Positions 1,715 to 46,313 of a stretch of 46,380 bases of DNA are shown here, in pieces. This DNA is from a virus. Within the stretch, counting starts at the first letter, position 1. Each line of letters starts with the position of its first letter. The stretch covers positions 1-46,380 of IMG/VR virus record IMGVR_UViG_3300047476_000964. One strand, written 5' to 3'. The notes beneath the pieces were generated by a model that did not search any database, had not been told where the DNA came from, and saw only the letters and a program-made list of their open reading frames with translations. The position numbers and the translations under genes were made by a program.

Positions 1715-2251
1715 TTATGCCGCTTGCTTGATGGCCTGATATGGGTTGCTGTAAATAATCAACCCAGTTTGCTTTAAAAGGTCAGAAATTGGAACGCAAA
1801 GACCAAAGGTTTGATTGGGTTGGTTGTACTTTTTCTGTGGTTTTTCTTGATATTTAGCAAAAGTTTCAACCTTGCCGGTGTTGTGTGTTTCAAACAAAAA
1901 GCGGCGCAGATTTTCCATCTTCATCTGGTAAAGCTGATCTTCCTTGATGAAGTAGTAAAAAAGCCAATCAGCTTTTGTTTTGTAAAGCCATCCTGGATTC
2001 CACCAATTTTTATTACTCCATGTCTCAATGAAGAGATTTCCATAAATGTTGGTCTCTTCAATCTTAAGCTCAACCAGTTCGTGTTTGTCTTTTACGGCCC
2101 GCTTAACAATCAAATCACCATAAGTTTGAAACTCAGCGTTCCTAATATCATGACGGTTAAAGACAACAACATGGCCAAGCTGTCTCAGCCAGCTAGTAAT
2201 AATTTCTTGTCCTTTAGCTTCAACAGAGAGGCAAGTATCATAGGCCGTCAT
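1715..2251 (-). CDS. PD-(D/E)XK-like nuclease, coupled to methyltransferase
   Basis: 178 residues from the ATG at 2251, chosen because AGAAGGAGG precedes it at ideal distance; a longer frame from 2350 lies inside the upstream gene. The order E16, GDLIV (D46), VELK (E61-x-K63) resembles the PD-(D/E)XK nuclease core, followed by an aromatic-rich segment (SNKNWWNPGWLYKTKADWL). No close family is recognised. It overlaps the end of the MT-A70 methyltransferase gene by 14 bp, so the two are translationally linked. The gene is clearly more AT-rich than its neighbours, suggesting separate acquisition. Nuclease activity is an inference from the motif. Confidence 0.6.
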   Translation of the reverse strand: MTAYDTCLSVEAKGQEIITSWLRQLGHVVVFNRHDIRNAEFQTYGDLIVKRAVKDKHELVELKIEETNIYGNLFIETWSNKNWWNPGWLYKTKADWLFYYFIKEDQLYQMKMENLRRFLFETHNTGKVETFAKYQEKPQKKYNQPNQTFGLCVPISDLLKQTGLIIYSNPYQAIKQAA

Positions 2252-3242
2252 AGAAAACCTCCTTCTCAATCTCGTTGCCCCATACAGTCCAACCCGGAGC
2301 ATTGCGTCTGGCAAACATTTCAAGGTATGAAGGTGGGCTGGCCCGCTCAATAAACTGACGAAATGCCTCCGGCTTGGCGGAATGCTTTGTCCGCTTTTCT
2401 TCGTGCCAGCTTTTCAGTGAACGATCTTGAAATGGTGCCTTTCCGCGCACACCAAATAGAAGAAACTCATGGGACACACGCCAGTAATTGCCGATGCCCA
2501 TCTGTGGCTTAACCCATACACAGCATGACTTGTATGTGAATCCCCAGGCTTCCATGATTTCTCGGCATTCAAACAGGAAAGCGTTGGTAGTCCATAGGTG
2601 AAGATGGGCGTTCTCTTCAGCCAATTCGGATACAGGCAGCGCAGCTATCTCAGCATTAGTCATGCCACCATAGTGGTTTCCAGTGGCAGCGCGAGTGCCT
2701 TGGTTTCCATATAGCCACGGCGGGTCGGCGTAGATAGTCGAGAAACGCTTACCCCCGTTGATGAGTTCATGAAGGTCAGTAGTGCTACAGGTTTGGATAG
2801 GGCCGCGCACCATTCCATCAAGTGCGTCATCCCTTGAAGAATCGTCGCGCAGCTTGGCAACGTCTTTGCGCTGCATTTCCGGGTGAATCAGGCCGTCGCT
2901 TAACGCTGATTCGAAAGCACCTTCGTCTAGTTTCGACAGTTCATAAAGCGTTCCCCAACTGGGCGGCAAAATGTGCACATGTGCACGATTTGAAACCATT
3001 GGATGCCGTCCAATAATCATTAGCCTTCGTGCTGTGGCGTCCTTAAACGGCAATTTCGTATCGCACATTTCCATGAACTCCCCATGAGCCAAATCATCCT
3101 TTGCCTCAATAAGTAAGCGCCCAACATCAATAATCGACTCAACAGAGTCCTGCCAGCGTGAACAAATGCGTTCAGCCCATTGGTCTGCTTTTGAACCAAT
3201 CCTGATAATGTTGCTTTCTTCAAGGCTAATGACTGCATTCAT
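2238..3242 (-). CDS. MT-A70 family DNA N6-adenine methyltransferase with N-terminal helical domain
   Basis: 334 residues. Residues about 20-135 are an all-helical domain (GRLLIEAKDDLAHGEF, LPFKDATARRLMIIGRH, ELSKLDEGAFESAL) like those in phage DUF3102-type proteins. Residues about 165-330 are an MT-A70-type methyltransferase: FSTIYADPPW with DPPW at 173-176, then THLHLWTTNAF-like (HLHLWTTNAFLFE) and WVKPQMGIGNYWR. The family transfers a methyl group from S-adenosylmethionine to adenine N6. The ATG is preceded by AAGGAATAC. The downstream nuclease-like gene overlaps its end. It could protect phage DNA from restriction, regulate phage functions, or pair with that neighbour. Confidence 0.85.
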   Translation of the reverse strand: MNAVISLEESNIIRIGSKADQWAERICSRWQDSVESIIDVGRLLIEAKDDLAHGEFMEMCDTKLPFKDATARRLMIIGRHPMVSNRAHVHILPPSWGTLYELSKLDEGAFESALSDGLIHPEMQRKDVAKLRDDSSRDDALDGMVRGPIQTCSTTDLHELINGGKRFSTIYADPPWLYGNQGTRAATGNHYGGMTNAEIAALPVSELAEENAHLHLWTTNAFLFECREIMEAWGFTYKSCCVWVKPQMGIGNYWRVSHEFLLFGVRGKAPFQDRSLKSWHEEKRTKHSAKPEAFRQFIERASPPSYLEMFARRNAPGWTVWGNEIEKEVFYDGL

Positions 3243-3528: not shown

Positions 3529-3762
3529 CTAGTTTTTAACCAGCCGCATCGGCTGCATCGGTTGGTTGCCCTCGATGAAGACACTGCGGCTATTTATGTC
3601 GCCCACCTTGTTGATGTAATCCACCTCAACTTTGGCGCTAGCCACTAGGGTTTGCGCCACGTTATTGATGGCCATCGCCTTCGCCACCTCCATCTCACCT
3701 GACTTCAGCATTTCGATGGACTCGAACAAGTGGTTACGCAAATCTTCCATGCGATTCTTCAT
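3529..3762 (-). CDS. Small conserved-looking phage protein
   Basis: 77 residues, mostly helical: RNHLFESIEMLKSGEMEVAKAMAINNVAQTLVASAKVEVDYI. This pattern (HLFETIE..K....D...AKA....QT.I..AKVEV) recurs in small early proteins of many proteobacterial phages, with no known function. Its start overlaps the end of the HNH gene by 29 bp. Confidence 0.7.
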   Translation of the reverse strand: MKNRMEDLRNHLFESIEMLKSGEMEVAKAMAINNVAQTLVASAKVEVDYINKVGDINSRSVFIEGNQPMQPMRLVKN

Positions 3763-4531
3763 CGGCTTCTCGCTGCTTGTTGTTGATAATTCGATTCAGC
3801 ACGCCGCGCAGTTGAATGACGGCATTGAGTTCTGGCGGTAACCGATGGCGCGTGTTACGCAGCATCAGCTCGGCACGGGTGACGAGTAGCAGGTTGTCCA
3901 GGGTGATGTTTTGCTTGTTGCCATCGATAAAGATGACGGCATGACCGGGCGGCAATGGCCCGTTGACGGACTCCCACAGGATCAGGTGGACAGCGCGGTA
4001 GTTCTTCACGCCTTGCAGGTCGGTAATTTTGCGTTCCAGGTAGCCGTCCTTGCTGATGCGTTCAAAACCAAGCGGCTTCCAGTTTTGTGGAATCTGGCCT
4101 TTCTTGAATTGCGTCAATTCGCAGCCTTCACCACACCAGCCTTTCTTGCCTTTGTTCCACGGTGTCTGCGCCGAGTGAAAGCGATGCGCCTTGCCTTTTT
4201 CCGATAGGTTGAGATTTGTGCGGGCCTGGACGCGGGCCTTGTATTCAGGCGACTTGTGCAGGTTCAGCAGGAAGGCGTGGTTGTAGATTGAGTCGATGGA
4301 CCGGCCAAAGTGTGCAGCCAGTGCAGGCGTGTCCATGTCTGGATAAAGCCGGATGAACTCGGCGGATTCAGCGTCCGTCCACCAGCGTCCCGTCTTGATG
4401 TCCAGCTTCTTCGCCCGGCCACGAATACCCATGATGGATCGGCCCATCAGCACGGCCAGGTCACTCGTCGGCATCTGCCCGTATTCACGGCGCAGCAGGT
4501 CGTCCTCTTTGGGTGTCCAGAGGCGTCTCAT
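3734..4531 (-). CDS. HNH endonuclease with N-terminal SANT/Myb-like DNA-binding repeats
   Basis: 265 residues from the ATG at 4531, which overlaps the upstream stop as ATGA; the longer frame to 4786 is a shadow. Residues 1-80 hold two Myb/SANT-like units (WTPKEDDLLRREYGQMP; WWTDAESAEFIRLYPDMD). The C-terminal part (VHLILWESVNGPLPPGHAVIF, DGNKQNITLDNLLLV) is an HNH_3-type nuclease: His and Trp, P.GH, DGN, and N..NL. Such proteins cut or nick DNA and are frequent in phage early regions, sometimes as homing enzymes. Confidence 0.85.
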   Translation of the reverse strand: MRRLWTPKEDDLLRREYGQMPTSDLAVLMGRSIMGIRGRAKKLDIKTGRWWTDAESAEFIRLYPDMDTPALAAHFGRSIDSIYNHAFLLNLHKSPEYKARVQARTNLNLSEKGKAHRFHSAQTPWNKGKKGWCGEGCELTQFKKGQIPQNWKPLGFERISKDGYLERKITDLQGVKNYRAVHLILWESVNGPLPPGHAVIFIDGNKQNITLDNLLLVTRAELMLRNTRHRLPPELNAVIQLRGVLNRIINNKQREADEESHGRFA

Positions 4532-6025: not shown

Positions 6026-6037
6026 ACGATAGTTACA
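6022..6037. promoter_or_regulatory. Repressor operator over the repressor start
   Basis: TGTAACGATAGTTACA differs from the perfect operator by one central base; the palindromic arms extend by one base on each side. It overlaps the -10 of the repressor promoter and the A of the repressor start codon, which fits negative autoregulation. Confidence 0.75.
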
Positions 6038-6699
6038 TGAGCAAATTAATCAGCATGAAAATTAGAGAGCTTCGCAAGGAGCGAAAATTGACGCAGCAAC
6101 AAGTGGCAGATGCGATTGGAATATCGCGGGTTGCCGTATCAAAATGGGAGTCTGGCGAGACTAAAGACCTCAAGCGCGATAGCCTCATTGGCCTTTCGGC
6201 TTTGTTTGGCGTTAGCCTGAACGAGCTGTTAGACGCAGAGAGCCTGGTAAAAGAGGAGCCAAATGTCTCTTATGGCATAAATCTGCATCCAGAACGCCGA
6301 GGCTATCCCATCATCAGCCCAGTCCAGGCAGGCCACTGGCGCGAGATCGTGGACACCTTCCCGCGTGGTGGCGCAGATGAGTACGTGATGGGCCTGAACA
6401 CCTACGGTCCTCACACCTTTGCCCTACGGATTGTCGGCAACAGCATGGAGCCTGAGTTTAGAGAAGGCGATATTGTCATCATCGACCCGGACGTGATGCC
6501 CGATCCAGGCAACTACGTGGTGGCCCGCAATGACGAAGAAGAGGCCACCTTCAAAAAATACCGGCCTCGCGGCATTGTCAATGGGGTAGAGGTTTTTGAA
6601 CTGGTCCCGCTTAACGAGGATTATGCCGTGATGCGTTCAGACCAGCAGCCGATTCAGATCATCGGAACGATGATGGAGCACACGCGCTACCGGCGCTGA
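6037..6699 (+). CDS. CI/LexA-type phage repressor (XRE HTH plus S24 peptidase)
   Basis: 220 residues. HTH_XRE at about 7-62 (LTQQQVADAIGISRVAVSKW). Hinge near 70-95 with a probable self-cleavage site Ala98-Gly99 (SPVQAGHW). S24 peptidase at about 120-215 with nucleophile Ser136 in GNSMEPEFREGD and general base Lys173 (EATFKKYR). It should keep lysogeny and be inactivated by RecA-stimulated self-cleavage after DNA damage. The ATG lies inside an operator, and no ribosome site precedes either it or the second Met at codon 7. Confidence 0.95.
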   Translation: MSKLISMKIRELRKERKLTQQQVADAIGISRVAVSKWESGETKDLKRDSLIGLSALFGVSLNELLDAESLVKEEPNVSYGINLHPERRGYPIISPVQAGHWREIVDTFPRGGADEYVMGLNTYGPHTFALRIVGNSMEPEFREGDIVIIDPDVMPDPGNYVVARNDEEEATFKKYRPRGIVNGVEVFELVPLNEDYAVMRSDQQPIQIIGTMMEHTRYRR

Positions 6700-6722: not shown

Positions 6723-7328
6723 ATGAAACAGCAAGCAAAATTCAATTCAAGGCGCAACGTGACCAAAGCCATGCAAACCTTGCTGGGTATATGTCGCGGA
6801 CTCACAGCAGACAACCATCTTAATGATGACGAAATCGGGTTCCTATCCACATGGATTCTTGATAACCAAGAAGTCACCCATGACTGGCCCGGTAGCGTCA
6901 TTCGTGACCGCATCCAGCATGTCATGGCCGATGGTGTCATTTCAGAAGAAGAACGCGAACAACTGCTGGAAACGCTAAAAAGCATATCTGGCGACGATTT
7001 CAAGGAAACCGGATCGGCTGAACCGGCGCCCGTCGCCTTCCCGACCGAAGAAGTTGACATCAAGGTCGATGGTTCCACCTTCTGCCTGACAGGTAAATTC
7101 ATCTTTGGGCCTCGCTCCAGCGTGGAGCGTGTCATTGAGAGCCAAGGCGGCAGCATGAGCGGCAATGTCACGCACAAAACCGATTACCTTGTCATTGGTA
7201 CCCTATCAAGCCCAGACTGGTTGCATACCAATCATGGTCTGAAGATTCAGAAAGCCGTCGAACTGAAGAACTCCGGCGGGAAGATCGCCATCATCACCGA
7301 AAAGGCATGGCTTGATGCCGTGAGCTAA
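6723..7328 (+). CDS. BRCT-domain protein with TerB-like N-terminal helical domain
   Basis: 201 residues; strong ribosome site (AGGAGGGGG). Residues about 15-92 are helical and acidic (LLGICRGLTADNHLNDDEI, HVMADGVISEEEREQLLETL), like TerB or other tellurite-resistance-type domains. Residues about 110-200 form a BRCT domain (STFCLTGKF, VERVIESQGGSMSGNVT, KTDYLVIG, KIAIITEKAWLDAV) as at the end of NAD-dependent DNA ligase. It is 23 bp after the repressor and before the terminator, so it is expressed in the lysogen. Possible roles: DNA-damage sensing, exclusion, or host-fitness factor. Confidence 0.8.
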   Translation: MKQQAKFNSRRNVTKAMQTLLGICRGLTADNHLNDDEIGFLSTWILDNQEVTHDWPGSVIRDRIQHVMADGVISEEEREQLLETLKSISGDDFKETGSAEPAPVAFPTEEVDIKVDGSTFCLTGKFIFGPRSSVERVIESQGGSMSGNVTHKTDYLVIGTLSSPDWLHTNHGLKIQKAVELKNSGGKIAIITEKAWLDAVS

Positions 7329-11757: not shown

Positions 11758-12074
11758 CGGCGCGGAAAGCTATGGCGCGGAGAGGCCTGGACGGGAAAGG
11801 AACCGCAGGCATGGCCCGTCTGGGACCCGAACTGAGCGCAACGGATGGGTTAGGCACGGCAGGCGGGGACCGGCGTGGACAGGTCTGGTGCGGCGGGGCG
11901 AGGCCGGGTGGGGCGTGGACCGGAATGGCAAGGCAGGCAAGGCCTGGCCCGGCGAGGCGCGGCCTGGACAGGAAAGGCAGGCCGGGCGGGGCTTGGCTTG
12001 GCGCGGATAGGCAAAGCAAGGCAGGCGGGGATTGGCGAGGCGTGGCTCGGCGAGGCAAGGCAAGGCAAGGCAGG
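11758..12074. repeat. GGCNN pentanucleotide array
   Basis: About 320 bp made mostly of 5-bp units of form GGCNN (GGCAA, GGCGA, GGCGC, GGCTT, GGCCT, with drifted units GGANN). The last part is the most regular, e.g. GGCGAGGCAAGGCAAGGCAA. Strong G/purine bias on the plus strand. Because 5 is not a multiple of 3, every frame reads a 5-residue repeat, giving long but meaningless ORFs on both strands. It separates recT from the next gene. No function known to me; candidates are a recombination site, RNA structure, or a replication or transcription pause. Confidence 0.85.
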
Positions 12075-12096
12075 CAAATCACGGAAACAGGAAAAC

Positions 12097-12351
12097 ATGA
12101 GCATCATCCACCCCATCCCAGATCCCGGCACCCGCTACGGACGCTGGCAGGTCATCGGCGGCGAACGCCACACCAGCGACAAAACGCGGATCAGGCAGAC
12201 GCTATGCCAGTGTGAATGCGGAACAAAACGCTGGGTTGCAATCATTGCATTGCGCCGTGGCAGCAGCAAATCCTGCGGCTGCCGAGTGAAAGAGCGCCAC
12301 GCGGCGTTCATGAAGCGCAAAGCTGCGCTACCGAAGAGTTTTGACGCATAG
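12097..12351 (+). CDS. Zinc-ribbon phage protein (AP2/HNH-associated type)
   Basis: 84 residues after an AGGA ribosome site; the longer frames upstream are array artefacts. Pattern GTRYGRWQVIG, CQCECGTKRWV, LRRGSSKSCGCRVKER is the zinc-binding N-terminal module seen in many phage AP2/HNH proteins, here standing alone. Probably a nucleic-acid-binding remnant or small accessory protein. Confidence 0.7.
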   Translation: MSIIHPIPDPGTRYGRWQVIGGERHTSDKTRIRQTLCQCECGTKRWVAIIALRRGSSKSCGCRVKERHAAFMKRKAALPKSFDA

Positions 12352-12884: not shown

Positions 12885-13181
12885 ATGGAAAATCTAGTAA
12901 TAAATGGCATTGAGTACGCGCCCGTCAAACAGCCAGCCGATGTTAATCGTGCTGTAATCGTTGTAGATCGCGGATGGATTTTTGCAGGAGACATTGAGCG
13001 CAAAAACGGCAGGATTTATCTGACGCGAGCAGTCTGGGTATTCAGATGGGAGTCGTGCGGATTTGCAGCCGTTATCACAGACCCATCAAAAGCAGATATC
13101 AGGCCGATAGACGATGTAGATTTGCCAGAAGTATCAGAGATTTTCTGCATCCCTGTAACCTTATCGTGGGGGCTGAGATGA
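12885..13181 (+). CDS. Small conserved-looking phage protein
   Basis: 98 residues: MENLVINGIEYAPVK, AVIVVDRGWIFAGDIER, IYLTRAVWVFRWES. The NGIEY.PV start and W-rich strand pattern recur in small phage and prophage proteins of unknown function. Ribosome site AGGAGA. Its stop overlaps the start of the glycine-repeat gene (ATGA). Confidence 0.65.
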   Translation: MENLVINGIEYAPVKQPADVNRAVIVVDRGWIFAGDIERKNGRIYLTRAVWVFRWESCGFAAVITDPSKADIRPIDDVDLPEVSEIFCIPVTLSWGLR

Positions 13182-13510
13182 AGTCGGCCATGAGGCCGGT
13201 CGGTGACGGCCACGGCCACGGCAACGGTGACGGCCACGGCTATGGCTACGGCTACGGCTACGGCTACGGCCACGGTAACGGCTACGGTGACGGCAACGGT
13301 AACGGCTACGGTGACGGCAACGGTAACGGCTACGGTGACGGCAACGGCTACGGTGACGGTAACGGCTACGGTGACGGCTACGGTGACGGCTACGGTGACG
13401 GCAACGGTGACGGCCACGGCTATGGCTACGGCCACGGCTATGGCTACGGCTACGGCTACGGCTACGGTGACGGCTACGGAACGGTGCAAAGTCGGGACAG
13501 ACGCCGGTAA
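13178..13510 (+). CDS. Glycine-dipeptide repeat protein (G-[YDNH])n
   Basis: 110 residues from the ATG at 13178, coupled by ATGA to the gene before. After MKSAMRPVGD, almost 90 residues alternate Gly with Tyr, Asp, Asn or His (GYGDGNGYGDGY, GHGYGYGHGYGYG). The DNA is a hexamer repeat GGYNAC: only the first base of every second codon varies while the AC stays. The tail is TVQSRDRRR. Such low-complexity chains can phase-separate, bind metal or adhere; function unknown. Longer frames in the same DNA (Thr-Ala or Ala-Val repeats) are shadows. Confidence 0.6.
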   Translation: MKSAMRPVGDGHGHGNGDGHGYGYGYGYGYGHGNGYGDGNGNGYGDGNGNGYGDGNGYGDGNGYGDGYGDGYGDGNGDGHGYGYGHGYGYGYGYGYGDGYGTVQSRDRRR

Positions 13511-13673
13511 AGAACCCCGCGCTGCCGCTGACTGGTAATCAGTGGGCAGCAACTATTTACGAAGCGCATCAGGATCAGCCGGGGCTGGCCAGCCCATAGG
13601 CAAACGGCTGTTAACGGGAGTGCCGACCCCGCCCGCTTCACCCTTTCATCAGTTTGTATCAGAAAACTGAGAA
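13511..13673 (+). other. Short non-coding stretch with two inverted repeats
   Basis: A perfect 14-bp palindrome GGGCTGGCCAGCCC (13582-13595) and a hairpin TCAGTTT/AAACTGA (13649-13655 with 13664-13670). No poly-T, so not clear terminators. No tRNA or promoter of good quality seen. Confidence 0.4.
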
Positions 13674-15565: not shown

Positions 15566-15746
15566 AGACGTTGAGATAGATTCAGAAGGCAACAAGCATT
15601 ATGTATTCGGCGAGGACGTGCTGTTCCAGATGTGCGCCGAGGCTATTCTTACTGCCGATGGCGCAATCGATAACGGATTCCCTGATCTGGCTCTAAAACA
15701 GATACAGGCAATGGCGGCAAAGTTGCGGGAGGATGGAAATGGCTAG
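15555..15746 (+). CDS. Small hypothetical protein
   Basis: 63 residues from MVVKDVEIDSEGNKHYVFGE, with GAGG upstream; a slightly earlier in-frame ATG at 15543 is less well placed. C-terminal helix (LALKQIQAMAAKLREDG). Overlaps the previous gene by 11 bp and the next by 8 bp. Confidence 0.55.
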   Translation: MVVKDVEIDSEGNKHYVFGEDVLFQMCAEAILTADGAIDNGFPDLALKQIQAMAAKLREDGNG

Positions 15747-16008
15747 TGAAACGCTTGATACAAAAGGCGCTGCCGAACTGCTTCACATTTCTGTTCAGTA
15801 CACCCAACAACTTGCCAACCGTGGTGAACTACCTGCAGTTCAGTTAGGGGGTGCGTGGTTGTTTTTGAAGTCCGATCTGATTGAATGGCTGGCCGAACGC
15901 GCCAGAAATGAGCAGCGGTTCCGGCAGGAACAGGCTAAACTTGCTGACCAGATTCCGAAGCCGGTTCGGAGTCGCGGGAGGCCGAGGAAGACGGCAACTG
16001 CGGTTTAA
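15739..16008 (+). CDS. Excisionase-like HTH protein (MerR/HTH_17 type)
   Basis: 89 residues. Residues about 5-55 (LDTKGAAELLHISVQYTQQL, ANRGELPAVQLGGAWLFLKS, DLIEWLAER) are the winged HTH of excisionase/HTH_17 proteins, with a basic tail (RSRGRPRKTATAV). GGGAGGA precedes the ATG. Being last before attP and upstream of the integrase, with repeated AGTGCGGTT sites right after its stop, it is the best excisionase candidate. Confidence 0.75.
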   Translation: MASETLDTKGAAELLHISVQYTQQLANRGELPAVQLGGAWLFLKSDLIEWLAERARNEQRFRQEQAKLADQIPKPVRSRGRPRKTATAV

Positions 16009-16257: not shown

Positions 16258-17295
16258 ATGGCGAACATCAGACAACGAAAATCCGGCAGTTGGGAAATCA
16301 TCATCCGCCGGAAGATGCTCCCCAAACCTATATACGCATCCGCCGACACCGAGGCAGAAGCCCGCGCCTATGCGGATCGGGTCGAGGCTCAACTCGATGC
16401 AGGAATCATCCCCCGCGATTTCGTAGAGCAAAGCCGCCAGAATATCTGGACCGTCAACCAATGGCTTGATGAGTACGAACATAAATACCACCCATCCTCC
16501 TCGGATCGACCGCTGCTACCGATTGTCCAGAAAGCCATAGGCGCATTCCTTGTTCACGAACTGGACTATTCTGCTCTGGAGCCTTGGATCAGCGACATGA
16601 AGTCGCGCCAACTCACTCCTGGCTCAATCAAGAAGCGCGTCGGGGCGCTCAAGCGGGCGCTGGATGTCGCCGTAGCGAAACGCATCCTGCCCAGTAATCC
16701 CATCGCCGCCCTGCCCCGCAATTACTCTGCCTACAGCAAATCTGATGGCCCTGCGGTCATTGACGAGAAACGAGATAGGCGGTTGGAGCCGGGAGAGGAA
16801 GATCGGATCAGGAGGGTACTGAAGGGCGATCCCGATATGCTGCGCCTCTTTACCCTGGCGCTGGAATCGGCGATGCGGTTGTCGGAGATGTATACGCTGA
16901 CCGGAGGCCAGATCGATCTCGACAAGCGAACAATCTTTCTCGACAAGACCAAGAACGGTGACAAGCGTCAGGTGCCGATGAGTTCCGTGGTGATTGATCT
17001 CTTCAAGTCAATGGGGGAACTAGGGGAAGACCAACCCGTGTTTCCCTATTTTCATGATGGCGACCGGCGGAAGACCACCATGCGCCTGTCGTATCAGTGG
17101 AGTCAGATTGCAGATAAGGCGGGATGCCCCGGCCTCCATTTTCACGATCTCCGGCATGAAGCCACTTGCCGAATTTATGAGCGCACCCGATTAGGCGATC
17201 TGGAGGTGGCAAAGATTACAGGTCACAAGTCCCTGACTATGTTGATGCGCTATGCTAACTTGCGTGGCAGCAATCTGGCAGACGCCCTTTGGTAA
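16258..17295 (+). CDS. int: Tyrosine recombinase integrase
   Basis: 345 residues. N-terminal arm-binding region (MANIRQRKSGSWEIIIRRK), core-binding SAM-like domain about 80-160, catalytic domain 175-340. Catalytic residues visible: Arg207 (ESAMRLSE), Lys232 (LDKTKNGDKRQVPM), His296-x-x-Arg299 (HFHDLRHE), His323 (ITGHKS) and Tyr332 (LMRYANL). All six are present, so the enzyme looks active. It would recombine attP with the host tRNA-Cys. Ribosome site GGAGAG. Confidence 0.95.
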   Translation: MANIRQRKSGSWEIIIRRKMLPKPIYASADTEAEARAYADRVEAQLDAGIIPRDFVEQSRQNIWTVNQWLDEYEHKYHPSSSDRPLLPIVQKAIGAFLVHELDYSALEPWISDMKSRQLTPGSIKKRVGALKRALDVAVAKRILPSNPIAALPRNYSAYSKSDGPAVIDEKRDRRLEPGEEDRIRRVLKGDPDMLRLFTLALESAMRLSEMYTLTGGQIDLDKRTIFLDKTKNGDKRQVPMSSVVIDLFKSMGELGEDQPVFPYFHDGDRRKTTMRLSYQWSQIADKAGCPGLHFHDLRHEATCRIYERTRLGDLEVAKITGHKSLTMLMRYANLRGSNLADALW

Positions 17296-44840: not shown

Positions 44841-45706
44841 TATGTTTGGAGCGTCCGGGTCGGTGTCGCACCGCCGCTGTCTGCCTGGTCGGCAGATTCG
44901 CCTGCTTCGGACGCTGAAGGATGGAGCGTGCCGGTCGGAGTCGAACCGCCCAGACCGGAGGGGTACTCCGGTTCCTGCCGTTTGGCGCGCGTAATGGATT
45001 TCCCACGATACATGCCCGCGCCCATGTCGTCGATCTTGCTGAACGGCAGGATCTGCACGGTGAGGCGCTCTCGGGCTGCGGGGTTGATAAAGTAGATGTA
45101 GCGAAGCTGGTAGCCGGGTAGCGTTACGCCTCCGGTTGCTTTTGCGTATGCCGCCAAATTGTAACGCCCGCCAGTTATTGCGTAATAGGATCGCCCGCCC
45201 AATTCGGGGCGCGGTGATGTCGGATTCGATTCGAGCGTCATTTTATGAATGACGACGCCATCCGCCCGCTTTACCAAATTTACCGATGACACGATCCCCG
45301 TCAACACAAACCCGCTCGCCCGGTAAATGGTGCCGTCACCACATTGGGTGCCGTCCGCAAAAGAGACGACCCATTCGATGTGCGGGTAGTGCTGGCGAAT
45401 AAGGCGCATAGCAACGGCAATGGCTCGGCTTTCGCTGTTTCTTGGCAAGGCATCCGAGAATGCCATTCGGTTCAATTCAATAAAACCGTTCCACGAAGTT
45501 CCCTCAACTAACCCAAGCATTTTGCGTTTGTCTAGGCTAGGGCCGAACTGCATAACGCCCTCAAGCCGATTGCCGAGAAACACGCCAAGATGAAGTTGGC
45601 TGTTTTGCACCACTTTCCCGCTGTAATGAACACGCTTTACCAACGCATTTGCATCAGCCGACTTTATTGGCGCAACACGTATGTCCTTGGCCGTGTACTC
45701 AGGCAT
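44840..45706 (-). CDS. mom: Mom-like DNA modification protein (adenine carbamoylmethylation family)
   Basis: 288 residues. Similar in plan to phage Mu Mom: ANALVKRVHYSGKVVQNSQL, GVFLGNRLEGVMQFGPSLDK, GFIELNRMAFSDALPRNSES, RAIAVAMRLIRQHYP, WVVSFADGTQCGDGTIYRAS, GFVLTGI, a GNAT-like fold. Mu Mom turns adenine into a bulky N6-modified base that blocks many restriction enzymes. The last 50 residues (TPTGTLHPSASEAGESADQA) are low complexity. Overlaps the ParB-like gene by 8 bp. No Com-like zinc partner is seen. Confidence 0.82.
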   Translation of the reverse strand: MPEYTAKDIRVAPIKSADANALVKRVHYSGKVVQNSQLHLGVFLGNRLEGVMQFGPSLDKRKMLGLVEGTSWNGFIELNRMAFSDALPRNSESRAIAVAMRLIRQHYPHIEWVVSFADGTQCGDGTIYRASGFVLTGIVSSVNLVKRADGVVIHKMTLESNPTSPRPELGGRSYYAITGGRYNLAAYAKATGGVTLPGYQLRYIYFINPAARERLTVQILPFSKIDDMGAGMYRGKSITRAKRQEPEYPSGLGGSTPTGTLHPSASEAGESADQADSGGATPTRTLQT

Positions 45707-46313
45707 TGTGAGTCAGGTAGGTTTCGCAAATCCGCGCCAATGCGTTGCCGTTGCTGTTTTCGTTTAGTGAGCCGACAAATTCACCTACTGATTTGGCTTG
45801 CTTGAGTGCAATACTGACCTGTTCTGCTTGTTCGTCGTGAAGGGTAAATGTCATTTGCTGAAAAGGCTCTTTGTCACCCTCTGGCAAATCTGGCATTCCA
45901 TCCAACTCATCAACGTCATCGAACATACTCGCCAGCGCAGCCGCATCAAACCCCGTCAGGTCAATATCGAAATCCTCAAGCCGCAGGTCTTCAATTTCAA
46001 GCGCCAGCAGTTCGGTATCCCAACCGCCGCCCGTTTCGGCTAGACGGTTGTCAGCAATGATGTATGCCCGCTTCTGAATGTCCGTCAGGTGCGAAAGGCG
46101 CAAGCATGGGATTTCATCAAGGCCAAGTTTCTGCGCGGCCAACACGCGCCCGTGGCCCGCAATGATGCCGTGGTCCTTGTCAATCAAGACGGGATTGTTG
46201 AAGCCAAACTCTCGAATAGACGCTGAGATTTGCGCGATTTGTTCTTGCGAATGTAGCCGCGAATTTCTGGCGTAAGGGATTAGCTTTTCGGTTTTAATCT
46301 GCTCGATTTTCAT
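45699..46313 (-). CDS. ParB/Srx-like protein linked to Mom
   Basis: 204 residues. Residues 1-95 are a ParB-type N-terminal domain (KLIPYARNSRLHSQEQIAQI, FGFNNPVLIDKDHGIIAGHGR, AAQKLGLDEIPCLRL, RAYIIADNRLAETGGW-like ending). This form is usually fused to a DNA adenine methylase in phages; here the methylase is missing and the C-terminal part (MTFTLHDEQAEQVSIALKQA) is of another type. Translationally linked to the Mom-like gene, so it may guide or enable modification. Confidence 0.85.
   Translation of the reverse strand: MKIEQIKTEKLIPYARNSRLHSQEQIAQISASIREFGFNNPVLIDKDHGIIAGHGRVLAAQKLGLDEIPCLRLSHLTDIQKRAYIIADNRLAETGGGWDTELLALEIEDLRLEDFDIDLTGFDAAALASMFDDVDELDGMPDLPEGDKEPFQQMTFTLHDEQAEQVSIALKQAKSVGEFVGSLNENSNGNALARICETYLTHNA

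Follow-up and report, generated by a model that had tools for sequence, protein, structure and literature searches.

MunI-type restriction-modification systems place a beta-class adenine methylase with a DPPW motif beside a small PD-(D/E)XK endonuclease. The gene pair described here resembles type II systems with MT-A70/M.MunI-type methylases in joining a DPPW beta-class methylase to a small PD-(D/E)XK protein. It differs from them in that its nuclease family is not recognised by Pfam, NCBIfam or PADLOC, the two genes overlap, the methylase has a DUF3102 N-terminus, and the pair is phage-borne and known from its genes alone. Phage-borne type II systems have a precedent in the isolated Mesorhizobium phage Lo5R7ANS, where the gene of a BglII-family endonuclease (Pfam, 3.2e-50) overlaps an MT-A70 gene. 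That arrangement is like the present one in its overlap with an MT-A70 gene, but its endonuclease is of the BglII family and not of the family studied here (the P0001 family), its MT-A70 protein is short, and its nuclease gene lies upstream of the methylase gene rather than downstream.

Among 831 surveyed phage genomes, restriction-modification systems were nearly absent, and 143 solitary methyltransferases were counted as against 12 solitary endonucleases (PMC4176335). The MT-A70 protein described here would be counted among the solitary enzymes, with no library naming its neighbour; unlike them, it is overlapped by a conserved gene with a nuclease fold. Hjc- and RecU-type resolvases and the homing enzyme I-Ssp6803I share the PD-(D/E)XK core with this neighbour, which differs from them in being linked to a methylase and in having no sequence similarity to them in PDB searches. 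A literature search of partial coverage returned no description of a phage MT-A70-nuclease pair or of the nuclease family.

An MT-A70 gene overlaps a small gene on a temperate phage

The stretch of DNA analysed as a whole (the window) is a record of 46,380 bases of virus DNA. It encodes a CI-like repressor (6037-6699), an excisionase-like protein (15733-16008) and an integrase (16258-17295), along with RecE/exonuclease VIII and RecT-like genes, a terminase and a portal, and is therefore taken to be a temperate phage. A near-identity search of the phage collection with the packaging end of the window gave no match. We further note that an open reading frame adjoining the repressor (6723-7328) has a C-terminal part that appears BRCT-like by eye, which is unusual in a phage, and that two highly repetitive frames, one G/R/A-rich (11875-12351) and one V/A/I-rich (13016-13552), are probably tandem repeats rather than genes. 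A ParB-like protein (45699-46313) also matches the N-terminal part of the ParB-methyltransferase family phrog_498.

The methyltransferase (P0002; 2238-3242, on the minus strand like all features of the locus given below) is a 334-residue protein, translated from an ATG start, with a helical/DUF3102 region at its N-terminus. Residues 167-324 match Pfam MT-A70 (1.9e-19), the protein matches phrog_359 at 1.6e-60, and PADLOC models of Type II DNA methyltransferases match it as well; the PDB matches are MT-A70 and METTL3 structures, with RNA enzymes among them. The catalytic DPPW motif, residues 173-176 within YADPPW (2715-2726), is invariant in our alignment of the family (A4), and the DUF3102 segment, residues 35-77 (3012-3140), scores above the curated Pfam cut-off (8.9e-6). 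Profile and motif together place the protein in the MT-A70 family, and the initial annotation of an MT-A70 enzyme with a DPPW motif and a helical N-terminal domain is borne out. We infer from its sequence that it acts as an adenine methylase on a DNA site. The DUF3102-type N-terminal region is found as a stand-alone protein in other phages (L062, 2417-3256, and L063; 43% identity to residues 11-132), and a ParB_N or ParB-like region takes its place in L006, L072 and, as read from the sequence, L168.

The methyltransferase gene shares exactly 14 bp (2238-2251), as originally annotated, with a gene for a protein of 178 residues (P0001; 1715-2251, ATG at 2251). A Shine-Dalgarno-like AAGGAGG (2258-2264) lies inside the methyltransferase gene, 6 nt before this ATG. 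The small gene has a GC content of 39.3%; the window as a whole has 56.8%, and a value this low is reached in just 0.1% of its 537-bp segments. Downstream follows a replication gene with a DnaT domain (840-1712; Pfam, 2.3e-21); the pair sits upstream of this gene, a position that, with the temperate nature of the phage, corrects the initial annotation.

The small protein is a predicted PD-(D/E)XK nuclease

The 178-residue protein has no match in Pfam, NCBIfam, PADLOC or PDB sequences, and its sole library match is to phrog_13596 (3.7e-4), a family of unknown function. Pfam hits to FliP, SfsA and NERD were disregarded for their weak scores, and PDB sequence searches gave only a non-significant match to Hpy188I (E 4.5). 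No homologue was found by tblastn against 50,697 phage records, nor in viral contigs scanned with the single sequence or with the first alignment. The bridge to relatives was provided by Nostoc and Tolypothrix plasmids, which encode proteins of about 30% identity; 30 bacterial loci and then 22 viral loci were found next.

Alignment of 19 homologues shows D46, E61 and K63 to be invariant in all. Across 25 homologues, the putative catalytic aspartate D46 (codon 2114-2116) and K63 remain invariant, and E61 of the (D/E)XK motif E61-L62-K63 (2063-2071) is kept in at least 90%; N72, F74, E76, T77, S79, N80, G87, Y99, F101 and G150 are also invariant. An AlphaFold2 model based on the 25-sequence alignment (pLDDT 84.2, pTM 0.82) has core strands at residues 47-51 and 56-65, and displays the features that define the PD-(D/E)XK superfamily, namely a catalytic D...(D/E)XK on core strands and an alpha-beta core fold. 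Almost all VIA-align matches of the model are PD-(D/E)XK enzymes, the best being the N-domain of Eco15I (Z 10.0, rmsd 2.5, 111 residues aligned), followed by I-Ssp6803I (9.3), NhoI (8.4), Hjc (8.4), RecU (8.0), HinP1I (7.9), PvuII (7.1) and DpnI (6.9). Foldseek, the check proposed with the initial annotation, likewise finds the nuclease core, with PvuII as its top match (E 0.012, prob 0.92). On the strength of the conserved D/ExK residues, the model and the structural matches, membership of the PD-(D/E)XK superfamily is well supported for this predicted nuclease, and the original reading of D46...E61-x-K63 as residues in a nuclease context stands. As modelled, these fold matches do not separate a restriction enzyme from a resolvase or a homing enzyme.

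The nuclease is exchanged in the closest relative

L059, the closest relative, shares the flanking genes and encodes a methylase of 91% identity. Nucleotide alignment by blastn extends at 89.5% identity up to window position 2239, where the methylase gene ends, and picks up again at 91% from position 992, inside the replication gene. The 1.2 kb between (993-2238), which separate the methylase gene from the final portion of the replication gene, correspond in L059 to unrelated DNA that carries an HNH nuclease gene (1598-2047 in L059; 41% GC; HNH_5, 7.7e-10) and a different N-terminal part of the replication gene. One nuclease has been replaced by another in this slot, and the methylase has been retained. 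Since most of the replication gene was exchanged as well, the nuclease may have hitch-hiked. The gene had been described as AT-rich and apparently acquired, and its base composition and the exact swap support a recent acquisition, as shown for this phage lineage only. The L059 record also has a RusA match (3888-4190) just behind a gene (3550-3867) whose counterpart in the window is truncated by the end of the record.

Nucleases recur behind long MT-A70 genes

A census that started from the methylase scanned viral loci with four MT-A70 proteins and took the best 80 of at least 600 MT-A70 stretches, ranked by methylase similarity alone (one of the 80, L065, repeats the L039 record). All 3098 six-frame open reading frames of these 80 loci and two more were then searched with a profile of the nuclease family from which the window and L039 proteins had been left out. 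Twelve frames matched at E<1e-3, each lying directly behind or overlapping an MT-A70 gene, and none was found elsewhere among the 3098; L104 and L099 fall just above this threshold. After clustering at 80% identity, a P0001-family match was present behind the methylase in 11 of 32 clusters of long MT-A70 proteins (at least 295 residues, with an N-terminal domain) and in 1 of 43 short clusters (Fisher p=2.2e-4). With any profile-supported nuclease in the next position included, the counts become 21/32 and 5/43 (p=1.5e-6), a wider comparison that is unblinded, with two of its families, A5 and A6, recognised in the same data.

Both of these downstream families are related to the P0001 family, A6 (L084 type) with an hhalign probability of 98.8% and A5 (L108 type) with 94.0% (E 1.4e-7); L089 was assigned to A6 by alignment alone. 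For one A5 member, the AlphaFold2 model (pLDDT 75) has PD-(D/E)XK enzymes as its best, weak matches (I-Ssp6803I, Z 7.2). L068 carries a PDDEXK_11 protein (5.2e-16) behind its methylase, and L059 and L070 carry HNH proteins. The nucleases counted behind MT-A70 genes are mostly unannotated PD-(D/E)XK variants with a few HNH enzymes, and the nuclease slot behind related methyltransferases is exchangeable, being filled by PD-(D/E)XK variants, PDDEXK_11 or HNH.

Long MT-A70 genes with no recognisable nuclease behind them occur in L074, L107, L115 and L119. L060 was removed from this group, since a re-chosen start gives a frame that overlaps the methylase stop by 4 bp; this frame has a GQVEI...VEWK pattern and, having no profile support, is not counted, as is also the case for L067, L099, L105 (RE_MjaI 0.009, below the cut-off), L106, L113 and L142. 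The overlap lengths given here rest on start codons picked by a rule that favours short overlaps. In the Gordonia phage Malisha (L144, 1674-3008), which has been isolated and has a laboratory host, an MT-A70 gene is followed after 36 bp by a gene annotated as a Holliday junction resolvase.

Relatives of the nuclease occur with and without a methyltransferase

Among relatives reached from the nuclease, a second MT-A70 gene shares 4 bp with the gene of a P0001 relative in L039; its product is 58% identical to P0002 over 204 residues, and the N-terminal halves align poorly. Methylases of other families are found in this position too: a ParB_N-Dam methylase gene overlaps the relative by 4 bp in L006, and a D12 methylase gene ends 46 bp before it in L032. 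Across 398 genomes of the phylum, a P0001 search gave no hit other than the L006 genome itself. A profile search also led to L168, in a bacterial genome, where the gene of a 402-residue protein, which by its sequence has a ParB-like N-terminus and MT-A70 motifs, precedes an A6-type nuclease gene and, behind that, a probable terminase small-subunit gene.

Most relatives reached through the nuclease have no adjacent methyltransferase. In L036-L038 the gene lies between a YqaJ-like exonuclease and NinB, and in a dozen or so viral loci (L041-L053, L055) the overlap is with the end of a gene for a family-A DNA polymerase; L057 and L167 also have no adjacent methyltransferase, and most copies in cyanobacteria stand alone. 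The polymerase-linked genes sit in a replication/recombination module. MT-A70 was absent from nine of ten whole records with relatives that were searched, the tenth being the L039 record, and searches for N6/N4-MTase (PF01555) and MT-A70 found none in the polymerase-linked or NinB-linked phage records. The initial annotation had set conservation of the gene away from any methyltransferase against its own reading; this is in part what we observe, in most cyanobacterial and in the polymerase- and NinB-linked phage relatives. In type II systems an endonuclease is not usually retained in the absence of its methylase.

In a tree of 44 sequences, one part, made up of cyanobacteria, Chloroflexi and the polymerase-linked phages, holds most of the unlinked relatives, with L037 and L057 as isolated unlinked members and the MT-A70-linked sequences on the remaining branches; linkage here refers to adjacency and not to whole bacterial genomes. 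We make no claim on the ancestral state, because the tree is arbitrarily rooted and has several linked branches of great length. Solitary cyanobacterial copies (L002, L005, L015, L020, L021, L025, L029 and L030) often have a small XRE-type regulator gene behind them, and next to it a variable large gene (HerA/NurA-like, TaqI-like methylase or exonuclease). Several Nostoc genomes carry two copies of the family, and in L016 (1411-2928) methylase-like frames, apparently split, end 117 bp before the cyanobacterial relative.

Discussion

The predicted fold, the gene overlap, the recurrent pairing and the exchange of nucleases in the L059 slot make a compact restriction-modification-like pair on a temperate phage the best reading of the two genes, and we place it at about even probability. 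The arrangement is that of Type II systems, in which methyltransferase and endonuclease genes are adjacent, and appears here as a 14-bp overlap and as a recurrent pairing. This reading is further supported by the coupling of the nuclease to other adenine methylase families (ParB_N-Dam in L006, D12 in L032) and by the L168 pairing, which was reached independently from the nuclease side. The small PD-(D/E)XK protein would cut the target site of the methylase when unmethylated, and the overlap with its internal ribosome-binding site may tie translation of the nuclease to that of the protective methylase. In a lysogen or an infected cell the pair could destroy incoming or competing DNA, and loss of the prophage would be costly to the cell that carries it. 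Against this reading stand the unlinked nuclease relatives, the four long MT-A70 loci with no recognisable nuclease, the resolvase and homing-endonuclease fold matches, which equal the restriction-enzyme matches in quality, and the L059 swap, which replaced most of the replication gene too and may not be driven by the nuclease. The interpretation offered by the initial annotation is thus partly supported: recurrent pairing of methyltransferase and nuclease speaks for its restriction-modification pair, and relatives without an adjacent methyltransferase speak against it.

Since relatives of the nuclease also occur away from a methyltransferase, it could instead be a recombination or a homing nuclease. 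It is known that phage resolvases of unrelated folds can take each other's place (PMC7824862), and this, with the unlinked relatives, makes a serious if unlikely rival of the proposal that the nuclease serves in recombination or replication (Holliday-junction-resolvase-like, or acting on flaps or branches) and happens to share its operon with a solitary anti-restriction methylase. Its structural likeness to Hjc (Z 8.4) and RecU (Z 8.0), the family members that have no methyltransferase beside them and either overlap the gene of a family-A DNA polymerase or are flanked by a YqaJ-like exonuclease and NinB, and the annotated resolvase behind the MT-A70 gene of Malisha all fit such a role. A resolvase leaves the bias of the nuclease towards long over short MT-A70 genes unexplained, however, and the resolvase RusA is already present in the records of L059, L069 and L135, the last two of which have a P0001-family nuclease besides.

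The same bias is not predicted if the nuclease is a homing or mobile endonuclease, free-standing and inserting next to methylase and replication genes, and deeply diverged families keep the same overlapping position behind MT-A70 genes. We consider this explanation improbable, even with the low GC content and exact mosaic boundaries, the different but also low-GC nuclease (HNH) in the same slot of the sibling L059, the second-best structural match to the cyanobacterial homing enzyme I-Ssp6803I (Z 9.3) and the scattered, multi-copy occurrence in Nostoc in its favour. The high scores of Eco15I (Z 10.0) and NhoI (Z 8.4), with DpnI (Z 6.9), could also point to a modification-dependent, type IV-like nuclease that cuts foreign-methylated DNA and whose recognition is blocked or redirected by the phage methylase. 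These scores tie within 1 to 2 Z with those of resolvases and ordinary type II enzymes, and no separate reader domain for modified bases is visible in the 178 residues, so that this appears very improbable.

Returning to the restriction-modification-like pair, we tentatively suggest that long phage MT-A70 proteins may, as a rule, be the modification half of phage-borne restriction-modification modules whose small overlapping nucleases are missed by libraries. On the same tentative footing, these nucleases would belong to several diverged PD-(D/E)XK families and sometimes be HNH enzymes. If true, part of the 'solitary' methylases of phages would not be solitary, and restriction systems would not be nearly absent from phages; an overlapping unannotated nuclease behind most long MT-A70 genes would alter the solitary-methylase count. 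Such modules would also offer a source of new small site-specific nucleases. Some 'orphan' phage methylases may thus be halves of small restriction-modification systems, and phage methylases would gain an offensive role besides protection, in superinfection exclusion, attack on host DNA and prophage addiction.
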